DNA of 64,000 bases, from NCBI RefSeq assembly GCF_030814135.1, contig NZ_JAUSUQ010000001.1, positions 434,001-498,000 of the forward strand, given 5' to 3'. The DNA comes from Caldalkalibacillus uzonensis (GTDB lineage Bacteria > Bacillota > Bacilli > Caldalkalibacillales > Caldalkalibacillaceae). This document shows positions 4,998 through 60,456 of the stretch, in pieces; positions within the stretch are counted from its first letter, which is position 1; the number at the start of each line of letters is the position of its first letter. Below the pieces are notes generated by a model. The model was not told where the DNA came from. It did no database searches and was given only the letters and a program-made list of their open reading frames with translations. The translations under genes and the position numbers were made by a program.

Positions 4998-5039
4998 AAT
5001 CCGGTCAGTGCAGGAGACCGACAGGGGACGATCCGGATT
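4998..5039 (-). terminator. Possible terminator after the PCYCGC lipoprotein
   Basis: Right at the TAA stop, AATCCGG and CCGGATT (minus strand) can pair across a loop that contains an alternative CGGTC/GACCG hairpin, followed by TTCTG. The T-run is short, so this is weak. Confidence 0.4.
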
Positions 5040-5517
5040 ATGACTTTTCTTCAGGGGGATAAGGTGTAGGGGTCGGTTCCCCCCCAAAACGGGAATAGGT
5101 TTCATCGATATAGTCGCGAATCTCACTCAGTGAATACCCTTGTTCAAGTCCTGCTTGCACATCCAGTGCAATGTTAATGCAAATGCCTCATCCAGCACCA
5201 TGATCGTCATAAACGATCATCTCATCTGTGCTTTGTTCCTCATCAAAAAAACAATCCAGATTACTCCGGTGGTTGATAGATTCCACATGACACCCACAGT
5301 AGCAAGGAAAATATTTTAAAACATCCCTCGCCTCGGTGGCAAAGGCATAGGCATGGGGGGCGTTAGGAATTTGAGCAAAAACAAAATCAGGAAACTCATA
5401 GATCTCGCCATCAAGTTCAAAACTTTGCAGTTCCTGCTTGTCTTGACATCCGGCTAAAAGCAGAAAGATGCCAAGTACAACAATGATGAGCGTTGTTTTG
5501 GGAAATTTGTTTGCCAT
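5038..5517 (-). CDS. PCYCGC-family lipoprotein with in-frame UGA: candidate selenoprotein
   Basis: A predicted 159-aa surface lipoprotein if the TGA at 5190-5188 is read through as selenocysteine. The signal peptide ends in lipobox LLAGC (Cys24). The PCYCGC motif is at 71-76 with a following SNLDC (Cys89). Then DDHGAG is followed by UGA (codon 110) and GICINIALD. In this family that position is normally Cys, giving a CGxC pair, so the gene would encode Sec-x-x-Cys (U110, C113). The same frame continues 49 codons with the family's usual ending (YSLSEIRDYIDETYSRFGG, then a PTPTP tail) to TAA at 5038. A start at 5517 has SD AGAGGT six bases away. A hairpin of bSECIS-like geometry follows the UGA. 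I recall an NCBI family name of the type 'CYCXC family (seleno)protein', so family precedent may exist. The alternative is a nonsense mutation or sequencing error. The function is unknown; thiol/selenol redox is inferred. Confidence 0.72.
5155..5171 (-). other. Candidate bacterial SECIS hairpin
   Basis: In the mRNA, 16 nt after the UGA, UUGCAC and GUGCAA form a perfect 6-bp stem closed by the loop UGGAU. The apical loop starts 22 nt after the UGA and has G at loop positions 2-3. As I recall, bacterial SECIS elements need an apical stem-loop roughly 16-37 nt downstream with a conserved G early in the loop. No folding energy was computed. Confidence 0.5.
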
Positions 5518-5616
5518 GTTGTGACCTCTTTCCATGTAACTAAGAACAGCCTCTGTCCCTGCCTCCATTGTATTAGAAGTGGACAGACACGGCAAGAGTG
5601 TTCATAAAATCGTCAG

Positions 5617-5663
5617 ATAATAAAGCTGCCCCGGAAGTGCATCAGCACCCTGCGGGGCAGCCC
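5617..5663 (-). terminator. Terminator after nrdJ
   Basis: On the minus strand GCTGCCCCG and CGGGGCAGC pair (9 bp) around a loop containing a nested GTGC/GCAC hairpin, followed by TTTATTAT. It ends the nrdJ transcript before the PCYCGC gene. Confidence 0.65.
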
Positions 5664-5720: not shown

Positions 5721-8306
5721 TTACAGTCCGCATTTCAACTGGGCTCCGCAATTGTTGCACGTGTTGCAGCCACCGATCTCCTCTACTGTTCCTTTGCGGC
5801 AAATGGGACAAGTTTCTCCAATTTCGGTCCCATAGGTCACCTTAGTGGCTTTTACGTCCGGAATTGTTTCAACGACGTATTGCTTTTTGCTTTCTTCTTT
5901 TTCCCAATCTTCAAAGAGGGATTGATTTTCTTCAAAGGTTTGGTCCTCAGGCGTTAAAGTGAGCACTTGAGCATCGCGGGAACCGTCCACATACACGGTG
6001 CCACCTTTGGCTCCACCTTTATGCAGGCGTTCATAAATGGTTTGCACCTGCTGAACCGTATATCCTTTGGGCGCATTGACCGTTTTGCTTAAAGAGCTGT
6101 CCACCCAGCGCTGGATCACACATTGTACATCCGCATGTTGTTCCGGTGTCAGATCCATCGCTGAGACAAACCACTCTGGCAGATTATTCGGGTCGGCTTC
6201 TGGATGACGTTCAAGGTACTCCTGCACAATGTCCGCTTTCACTTCAATAAATTTGCCCAGACGCCCAGAACGGTAATAGGTAAAGGAGTAATAGGGCTCT
6301 AAGCCCGTGCTGACCCCGACCATCGTTCCTGTCGAACCTGTAGGGGCTACGGTTAACAAATGGGAGTTGCGGATCCCGTACTTAAGGATGTCCTGGCGGA
6401 TATGTTCGGGCATGCGTTTCATGTAGCCCGTGTTAATAAACGCTTCCCTCAGCTTCCGGGTTTCTTCTTCCGTTTGACCCACTAAATATGGAAAGCTCCC
6501 TTTTTCTTTGGCCAGTTCAATGGAGGCTTCGTAGGCTGTGACAGCAATCGTTTCAAAGATTTTATCCACAATTTGGTTGCCTTCTGCTGAGCCGTACACT
6601 TTTTCCATATAAATTAATGCGTCGTGCAGCCCCATGACCCCCATGCCGATGCGGCGCTCACCTTTGGCTTGCTTGGTGTTCTCCTCCAGGAAATAGGGGG
6701 TGGCATCGATCACGTTATCTTGCATACGAATACCGGTGCGAACTGTCTTTTTCAACTTTTCATAATTAAACTGTTTCGTGTCCTTGTCCACCATTTGTGC
6801 CAAATTAACAGCAGCAAGGTTACAAACACTGTACGGGGCCAACGGCTGCTCCCCACATGGATTAGTGGCCACCACTTTTTGGCCATAAGCTTTAGCATTG
6901 GTCATTTCATTGGCATTATCGATGAAGAAAATACCCGGTTCAGCCGAATAGGTGGCGCAGATGTTGATCAGCTTCCACAGTTCTCTTGCTTTAATCCGCT
7001 GATAGACACGGGTTTTATAGCCCCGTGCTTCCCATTCTCTGACGTCCCCCATTTTATGCCATTCGCGATTGTAAATGTCCATTTCTTCGTCGCTCATATT
7101 TTCAATGTCCGGGAAGCGCAGTTCGTACTCCGCATCCTTCTCAACAGCTTCCATAAACTCTTTGGTCAGACAGACAGAGATATTGGCCCCTGTGAGAAAG
7201 TCGGGATTATGTACGTCATAGACGCCACCATCCGCCAGCTTTCTCTCCACATCTTCAATGATCTCCCGGCTGAACGGGGAATCCTCCGCTTCCCTGTGAA
7301 TAGCCAGGATCTTTTCGTACATCTCCACTTCGGTCGGTTTAAGTGGGGTAAATTTTAATTTTTCTTTGGCTGTCTTTTTGATGCGCGGGTCTTCAGCCTT
7401 TTCGATAATAAAACGCAGCACACGCGGATTTTGCATTTTGGAGATAATAAATTCAATGATATCAGGATGCCAGTCGGCCAGCATAATCATTTGAGCTCCC
7501 CGGCGGCTTCCTCCCTGCTCCACCAGGTGAGTCAGTTTAGCAATATCATCCAGCCAGGATACAGAGCCGCTTGATTTGCCGTTCACACCTTTACATAAAG
7601 CCCCTCTCGGGCGCAAAGTGGAGCCGTTTGTGCCCACTCCGCCGCCGCGGCTCATGATTTCCATCACTTTTTTGCGGTGTTCAGCGATGCCTCCGCGGGA
7701 ATCATGCGGGAAAGGCATCACATAACAATTGAAGAATGTGACGTCAATATCCGCCCCTGCACCGTACAGGACACGGCCGGCCGGAACAAAATTCATATTG
7801 ACCAGTTCCTCGTAAAAATCATGAAAAGCTTTCTTTTGTTGTCCCGGATCCGTCTCAACAGCCGACAGTCCCGTAGCGACGCGCTTGGCAATTTGTTCAT
7901 AAAAAATTTCCAGCGGCTTTTCCACCACATCAAGGGAGACCTCAATAATGCCGGTTTCCATTTCTTGCGGGTCTTCCAGCACACCGCGGAACGATTCATC
8001 CACGCAAACTTTGGCCACCCCCCGGCTCCGGTCAAAATCCAGAACAAAACCATAGCCCCGAGCCGGAAATTTAGGATCCTCCTTTACTGTTAAAACAACA
8101 AAATCACCTTTTTTCAACGTACGCTTTTCGATGTCTTTAAAAGCATAGCGGTCCAGCATCACCAGCCTGGAGACCCCTTTTAAGGTGCGGTGCATGTCTG
8201 GCGTAATGGGGTGAACCTGTGGGAATTGCTTGATATCCTCGTTCAGACGGGCTGTATTGATTTGCATATCTTCCCCTTGTGCTGATGTGATCAGCATGGT
8301 ACTCAT
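5721..8306 (-). CDS. nrdJ: Adenosylcobalamin-dependent (class II) ribonucleoside reductase
   Basis: An 861-aa class II ribonucleotide reductase, which makes deoxyribonucleotides with a B12-derived radical and without oxygen. Seen: GGGVGTNGSTLRPRG, the NPCGEQPLAPYSVCNLAAVN active-site segment with catalytic Cys and Glu, and APTGSTGTMVGVSTGLEP. The C-terminal tail contains CPICRKG and CNTCNNCG, a zinc-ribbon and redox tail typical of NrdJ. A TTG at 8312 is possible, but the ATG at 8306 is seven bases after AAAGGAGG. The long, divergently shared upstream region has two NrdR-type boxes. I see no cobalamin riboswitch there. The window's other B12 enzyme is methylmalonyl-CoA mutase. Confidence 0.95.
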   Translation of the reverse strand: MSTMLITSAQGEDMQINTARLNEDIKQFPQVHPITPDMHRTLKGVSRLVMLDRYAFKDIEKRTLKKGDFVVLTVKEDPKFPARGYGFVLDFDRSRGVAKVCVDESFRGVLEDPQEMETGIIEVSLDVVEKPLEIFYEQIAKRVATGLSAVETDPGQQKKAFHDFYEELVNMNFVPAGRVLYGAGADIDVTFFNCYVMPFPHDSRGGIAEHRKKVMEIMSRGGGVGTNGSTLRPRGALCKGVNGKSSGSVSWLDDIAKLTHLVEQGGSRRGAQMIMLADWHPDIIEFIISKMQNPRVLRFIIEKAEDPRIKKTAKEKLKFTPLKPTEVEMYEKILAIHREAEDSPFSREIIEDVERKLADGGVYDVHNPDFLTGANISVCLTKEFMEAVEKDAEYELRFPDIENMSDEEMDIYNREWHKMGDVREWEARGYKTRVYQRIKARELWKLINICATYSAEPGIFFIDNANEMTNAKAYGQKVVATNPCGEQPLAPYSVCNLAAVNLAQMVDKDTKQFNYEKLKKTVRTGIRMQDNVIDATPYFLEENTKQAKGERRIGMGVMGLHDALIYMEKVYGSAEGNQIVDKIFETIAVTAYEASIELAKEKGSFPYLVGQTEEETRKLREAFINTGYMKRMPEHIRQDILKYGIRNSHLLTVAPTGSTGTMVGVSTGLEPYYSFTYYRSGRLGKFIEVKADIVQEYLERHPEADPNNLPEWFVSAMDLTPEQHADVQCVIQRWVDSSLSKTVNAPKGYTVQQVQTIYERLHKGGAKGGTVYVDGSRDAQVLTLTPEDQTFEENQSLFEDWEKEESKKQYVVETIPDVKATKVTYGTEIGETCPICRKGTVEEIGGCNTCNNCGAQLKCGL

Positions 8307-8423
8307 GAACAAGCCTCCTTTAAATTAAGCAGATAAGAATAAATCAGGTGATTGTAGCATATGATTAGTAAATTATGTACAAATTCATGTTGTGTCTTCT
8401 ACATTATCATAGTTTAGAACGAA

Positions 8424-14644: not shown

Positions 14645-14702
14645 AAAAAGGACAGCACAACCAAGCCCTTAACGGATGAAGGGTAACTTGGTCTCTGTCC
14701 TT
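14645..14702 (-). terminator. Terminator of the glycine riboswitch expression platform
   Basis: AAGGACAG pairs with CTGTCCTT and the inner ACCAAG/CTTGGT and CCCTT/AAGGG pair too, followed by TTTTT on the minus strand. The 5' arm is also the 3' end of aptamer 2 (GGACAGAG), the classic overlap that lets glycine binding prevent termination. Confidence 0.85.
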
Positions 14703-14935
14703 GAACCTGAGAGTTTGCCCTGTTACCGGGTTTCCCCTTTGGTGGTTCAGCACCTGCTTGTAAGACAGCTTGCTGTAAACTGGCCTGGATAAATTGGTCG
14801 GGTGGGTGGCTTTAAACGGTGCTGAACGCTCTCCAGAGATGCGTCCTGTAAGAGTCTTTTTGCCTGAGAGATTCACCCGGCCGGGCTTGCTCCTTCGGCG
14901 CTACCCTAAGGTAGTCTCTCCCCTTACAGTCATTC
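14650..14935 (-). promoter_or_regulatory. Tandem glycine riboswitch (gcvT element)
   Basis: Two glycine aptamers in series on the minus strand. The first runs from GGGGAGAGACTACC through GGAGCAAGCC and AATCTCTCAGGCAAAAAGACTC to TCTGGAGAG. The second, joined by a short linker, contains CACCAAAGGGGAAACCCGG and AACTCTCAGGTTCAAGGACAGAG. The order, conserved CTCTCAGG cores and terminal terminator match the known class. Glycine should turn on gcvT-gcvPA-gcvPB. Confidence 0.93.
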
Positions 14936-59746: not shown

Positions 59747-59832
59747 CGCTTCCCTCTTGTCTTAAAATATTAAGTCCGTCCTAATTATAGTAAATCATAA
59801 TCTCTGTCAAACCAAAAAAAACAAAGTTATGT

Positions 59833-60450
59833 AAAAAACCGGAGGGTGGTCGCATGATAGGTAAACATTACGGCTTAGGTCCAGTAGGTTTTCCCAAGCA
59901 GACACCGCCCTGTCGCCAGTGCGGCGGTTTCCCTTTAAGTCCGCTTCAACGCTGTCACCAGACGTTGGACTGGATTACCACTTAGTCCGTACTCTAATCC
60001 CCATCATGCGTCGCCGGAGCGAACAGTCTAGGAGATTTCCTCAACAATCCTTAACTTTTTCCTAGCCTCTTTTGCAGTGCAAGTTTCAAATAGCTGGGGT
60101 TTTAACCTATTGGCCATATAGGTTAAAACCCTTTAAAGCTATTATCCCCTTACACCACTCAAGGCAGGCTACGCTGCCATCATAACCGTCCTCAACGGCC
60201 TGATAGGCAGGTTTTCCCTAAGCCATACTCGTTTGCGCAATAAAGCATGGACTTAGGTCTCCGCGGAGGCAGGGTCAACGCCCACATGCCTTTGTGGATC
60301 GCCCTACCACCTTAACTCCCAGCATCGACCCCCGACTGGGCGTCGAAAGCCGACACAAGGAACTTCATCGATGTGCCCTTTGACGGATTTTTAGGCCCGT
60401 CTTCAGAAAAAGAGGATTGACTAGAATACTGCACCACCCTCTTCTAGCGT
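59833..60450 (-). ncRNA. ole: OLE RNA (ornate, large, extremophilic)
   Basis: About 615 nt of non-coding minus-strand sequence between ispA and oapA, the known place and size of OLE RNA. The ends pair: GAGGGTGGT (60441-60433) with ACCACCCTC (59850-59842), a perfect 9-bp closure 600 nt apart, followed by CGGTTTTTTA. Internal hairpins include a 14-bp perfect stem (arms 60097-60110 and 60118-60131, loop 7 nt) and CCACA/TGTGG. A sigma-A promoter lies just upstream and oapA just downstream. I identified it by context, size and structure, not by covariance search. OLE is known to bind OapA at the membrane. Confidence 0.9.
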
Positions 60451-60456
60451 ATAGTG

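Follow-up and report, generated by a model that had tools for sequence, protein, structure and literature searches.

This locus raises the question of whether an in-frame UGA codon, lying within a lipoprotein gene on the minus strand, ends a short protein or is read as selenocysteine (Sec). The gene occupies 5038-5517 of the window, by which we mean the whole 64,000-nucleotide stretch of Caldalkalibacillus uzonensis DNA that was analysed.

The lipoprotein gene, its UGA codon and the machinery of its genome

Read through the UGA, the minus-strand frame runs from an ATG at 5517 to a TAA and encodes 159 residues (MANKF...MIVYDDHGAG-U-GICINIALD...PTPTPYPPEEKS*), the sole in-frame stop before the TAA being the UGA at 5190-5188, codon 110. 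An AGAGGT resembling a ribosome-binding site was seen by sequence inspection directly 5' of the ATG (5524-5529, minus strand), and a terminator-like stem with a T-rich tail, detected by a consensus scan only, lies directly 3' of the gene (5004-5022, minus strand). The signal peptide (5446-5517) contains LLLAGC, with the lipobox LAGC and a predicted lipidated Cys24, which is invariant in alignment A1. The PCYCGC motif with its three invariant cysteines follows at residues 71-76 (5290-5307), and the proposed Sec (5188-5190) is the first residue of a UGIC motif, at an invariant Cys/UGA column. The 49 codons past the UGA (5041-5187) supply the partner Cys of this UxxC, two C-terminal helices and a PTPTP tail.

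We found that the PF13798 (PCYCGC) profile spans the UGA, matching residues 40-154 with an E-value of 7.4e-32 and 110.8 bits, against a gathering cut-off of 25. The window protein, the product of the only PCYCGC gene in its genome, shares with this family the domain across the UGA, the lipobox, the PCYCGC motif and all the further conserved cysteines; it differs in having Sec for the first Cys of the CxxC, and in showing no match to the first 40 positions of the profile, which the canonical proteins of Bacillus and Paenibacillus do contain. C72, C74, C76, C89, U/C110 and C113 were invariant in the alignments. The first-pass annotation had described the frame, the UGA and the 49 codons up to the TAA, and the frame and translation agreed with it throughout. 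It had also placed the UGA at the family's conserved Cys and taken the continuation for the family's normal ending; the column is indeed Cys, the first of the CxxC, in all non-UGA relatives examined, and the PF13798 match lies on both sides of the UGA, with the PTPTP tail present and homology stopping at the TAA. Its statement that ordinary gene calling would lose the motif was right in that the CxxC would go, along with the helical C-terminal part, but PCYCGC lies upstream of the UGA and is kept.

The frame was then compared with that of a congener (L063). The 49 codons past the UGA gave pN 0.11, pS 0.42 and a dN/dS of about 0.2. For the 60 codons upstream of the UGA, pN was 0.11 and pS 0.76, and since the latter is saturated, no dN/dS ratio was taken from them. 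Beyond the TAA, identity with the congener drops to 33%. This purifying selection past the UGA, together with the end of homology at the TAA, indicates that the frame after the UGA is maintained as protein.

The Sec machinery, named beforehand as a check, was found complete in the source genome (3.88 Mb, estimated completeness 100%). A tRNA-Sec with anticodon UCA is present, selB lies approximately 1.1 kb from it, selA is on the same contig, and a Sec-containing selD is also encoded. In this SelD (L050; C9, 182097-183026) the catalytic position is encoded by UGA (GGUGCK), and by sequence the protein is a selenoprotein too. In a formate dehydrogenase-like gene (L178; C8, about 161.3-162.0 kb) the canonical Sec site, HARIUHSS, is likewise encoded by UGA, with a possible hairpin 3' of it whose loop contains GGUC. 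Since the UGA codons of both genes stand at canonical sites, at least two well-known selenoproteins appear to be made by Sec decoding in this genome.

UGA, SelB and a SECIS-like hairpin among relatives

Among 121 genomes of relatives, 55 have a PCYCGC gene, and in 12 of these it takes the UGA form. SelB was found in all 12, as compared with 9 of the 43 genomes with a Cys form (Fisher p 7e-7, in a test that ignores shared ancestry). Wider samples added four UGA genomes within the class and two outside it, again with SelB in all, so that the UGA form amounts to at least 19 genes in at least 18 genomes. In all 19 genes the UGA aligned to the same invariant Cys column, and SelB was encoded in 18 of 18 genomes. 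Because the same column holds UGA in at least 18 sampled genomes, among them the congener with 71% protein identity, the placement of the codon is not due to chance. Scattered stops past this point, which had been named as evidence against the Sec reading, were absent from the relatives; the column contained only Cys or UGA. No relative was found among viral contigs. Bacilli are not generally counted among the selenoprotein-rich groups, and the earlier remark that selenoproteins are rare in Bacillales needs qualifying, as selB occurs in 38 of the 121 genomes.

A tree was built from 96 proteins. It placed every one of the 19 Sec genes in a single branch of 27 members (support 100/100), and a second branch of 69 members, including the canonical Bacillus and Paenibacillus proteins, was entirely of the Cys form. 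At least three changes between Sec and Cys are required on this tree, the deep forks of which are uncertain because the alignment is short. The Cys form of a Kyrpidia MAG (G058; L059 / L140) is nested inside the Sec branch; SelB was not found in this 86% complete genome, and the gene is a probable Sec-to-Cys reversion.

The first-pass annotation had further suggested a search for a SECIS element at 5140-5200, and comparison of the UGA genes yielded a conserved, covarying SECIS-like hairpin. In the window it reads UUGCAC-UGGAU-GUGCAA (5155-5171, minus strand), with the apical loop 22 nt after the UGA and a G at loop position 2. The published bSECIS model (PMC13188914) describes a hairpin 16-37 nt after the UGA and a G within the first two positions of its loop; the window hairpin, with its distance of 22 nt and its loop UGGAU, agrees with that description. 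A hairpin of 5-7 bp with a 5-nt loop starting 21-22 nt past the UGA was present in all 19 UGA genes, those of the window and the congener L063 being offset by one base from the others. Stems of 5 bp or more thus occurred in 19 of 19 genes, as compared with a mean of 3.5 and a maximum of 11 under a synonymous-codon null (20,000 draws); with one gene per lineage, the figures were 14 of 14 and a null maximum of 9. In all 17 genes of the common register the two wobble-wobble pairs were Watson-Crick, and each occurred as several pair types (GC 10, AT 4 and CG 3 for the first; CG 9, AT 6, GC 1 and TA 1 for the second). The covariation score of 13 sequences was 0.62, as compared with 0.24 after shuffling and no more than 0.17 when the partners were slid. 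Five Cys-form genes, pooled, showed no folding excess over the synonymous-codon null, and an Rfam search with the hairpin element gave no meaningful match. The RNA evidence is comparative, since the window hairpin by itself is not unusually stable (z -0.10 over 54 nt; codon-null fraction 0.18).

Three other readings of the UGA were tested against the relatives, SelB, the hairpin and the selection on the frame, and were rejected. This genetic code ordinarily uses UGA as a stop, and the gene might accordingly be a nonsense-mutated pseudogene or encode a deliberately short protein of 109 residues. One relative (G603; L155), considered as a further Sec gene and rejected as such, does hold a decayed PCYCGC copy, with a UGA at another position, an intact CxxC and no SelB. 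As an account of the window gene, a true stop is nevertheless very improbable in view of the same UGA in genomes of other orders and even outside the class, all with SelB, the single UGA in the frame, the purifying selection beyond it and the conserved hairpin. Near-cognate decoding as Trp or Cys would suit the Cys found there in relatives, but it leaves aside the complete Sec machinery, the SelB of every UGA genome and the SECIS-like hairpin with a G in its apical loop, and we regard it as more improbable still. A sequencing or assembly error, conceivable in a draft of 53 contigs, has a negligible chance, as the congener and many separately assembled genomes carry the same UGA.

Taken together, the position and conservation of the UGA, the hairpin, the machinery and the purifying selection, each established computationally, lead us to predict that UGA-110 is read as selenocysteine, with a probability of about 0.94, and we infer that Sec is inserted there in vivo. 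SelB and tRNA-Sec would decode the codon under the direction of the hairpin, which lies within the coding sequence, and the product would be a PCYCGC-family lipoprotein anchored in the membrane and exposed outside the cytoplasm.

A probable Sec branch of a known selenoprotein family

The PCYCGC family corresponds to one first reported as OS_HP4, reportedly from a deltaproteobacterial symbiont of Olavius. OS_HP4 is listed as a selenoprotein family with a UxxC motif (PMC9312934), and OS_HP4 / CYCXC, again with UxxC, has been assigned to PF13798 (PMC13188914; NF041379), so that the first-pass annotation was right to mention the family as a possible selenoprotein family. Since OS_HP4 had already been listed with this motif, the window gene is a further Sec instance of a known family, with which it shares, as compared by model and listed motif, the homologous domain and the UxxC (UGIC here). 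The Cys form, with seven conserved cysteines, has been described in the Parageobacillus lipoproteome (PMC13068155). Sec forms of this family from Bacilli were not described in the literature searched, most subscription papers being outside the search. New here are the breadth of the Sec form in Bacilli, a SECIS hairpin that covaries, and a weak signal of a CcmH-like fold.

The model NF041379 (CYCXC family (seleno)protein) matched all 17 members of alignment A1; the window protein gave an E-value of 2e-19 and 69.4 bits, short of the 90 bits set as the curated cut-off, and databases therefore probably contain the products of such genes in truncated form. In many Bacilli, a conserved lipoprotein of the cell surface, from an uncharacterised family, is predicted to use selenium. 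The occurrence of Sec at one specific cysteine, with close relatives having Cys, points to a catalytic residue and can be tested directly.

Predicted fold, possible function and other features of the window

A likeness to CcmH had been suspected because of the ending GKSxxEIRxYIxxxYG, ahead of the structure model. The AlphaFold model, made with Cys substituted for Sec, was confident (pLDDT 90, pTM 0.79). In it the signal helix is followed by a small beta hairpin and by helices that run into PCYCGC; after a long loop comes a helical pair, which opens with the CxxC. Foldseek returned no match for this model at an E-value of 0.001 or better. A second structure comparison ranked structures of CcmH, which has a three-helix fold, second and third, with scores that are middling by the tool's own note: Z 4.4 over 74 residues (rmsd 3.6) for P. 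aeruginosa CcmH 2hl7 and Z 3.6 over 71 residues (rmsd 3.5) for E. coli CcmH 2kw0, values within the range reachable by common helical arrangements. In hhalign, the C-terminal helical pair aligned with 12 CcmH/NrfF sequences at probabilities of 76% and 44% over 28-35 columns, these being single comparisons rather than database searches, and one PCYCGC family member had a weak CcmH match in Pfam (E 0.035). The resemblance to CcmH / NrfF (PF03918) is one of weak similarity in the C-terminal helical pair and in the predicted fold, whereas the window family lacks LRCxxC (alignments A1, A2 and A4), has another Cys layout and is without a ccm operon. Together, these signals form a lead, and do not amount to membership. 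The sole match in a profile search of solved structures, a saposin fragment (E 0.004), was taken as a chance helical CxxC match.

Two thiol centres would be present in the product: PCYCGC, accompanied by a further conserved His and Cys, and the UxxC. At a helix start, the UxxC could form a selenenylsulfide. The protein may act in extracytoplasmic thiol/selenol redox chemistry, with selenium raising the reactivity of the attacking residue of the UxxC. Sec in a UxxC is the usual redox pattern, and mainly for this reason we consider a redox role somewhat more probable than a purely metal-binding one.

One possible alternative, which competes only with the functional half of our best explanation, is that the selenoprotein mainly binds a metal or metalloid, for instance as a soft-metal trap or chaperone, without thiol-disulfide chemistry. 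Its seven invariant or nearly invariant Cys/Sec/His ligands would fit such a role, as would a heavy-metal P-type ATPase near 12 of 97 loci and an ArsR-type regulator near 8 of 97, both named by sequence inspection. These neighbours are, however, inconsistent, and none of the metal genes flanks the window gene; the UxxC pattern and the weak CcmH-like signal also speak against metal binding alone, to which we assign an appreciable but smaller likelihood. No conserved operon or consistent neighbour pointing to a function was found across the 97 loci, at which cytochrome c oxidase-like subunits (near 4) and two-component systems (near 12) also occurred. A bolder form of the redox reading would make the PCYCGC proteins as a family lipid-anchored thiol/selenol oxidoreductases that act outside the cytoplasm, built on a CcmH-like helical core and bearing two thiol centres; their Sec branch would extend across many families of Bacilli and would have been overlooked because gene callers truncate at the UGA. 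This bolder reading is speculative and rather unlikely.

Other features were noted in the window, all on the minus strand. At 5619-5661, GCTGCCCCG...CGGGGCAGC followed by TTTATT is likely the terminator of a ribonucleotide reductase-like gene that lies upstream (5721-8312). A tandem glycine riboswitch, the second aptamer being the weaker, lies at 14692-14933, 5' of glycine cleavage genes. A complete OLE RNA, a large RNA of extremophilic Bacillota, is found at 59830-60453 (Rfam RF01071, 578 bits).
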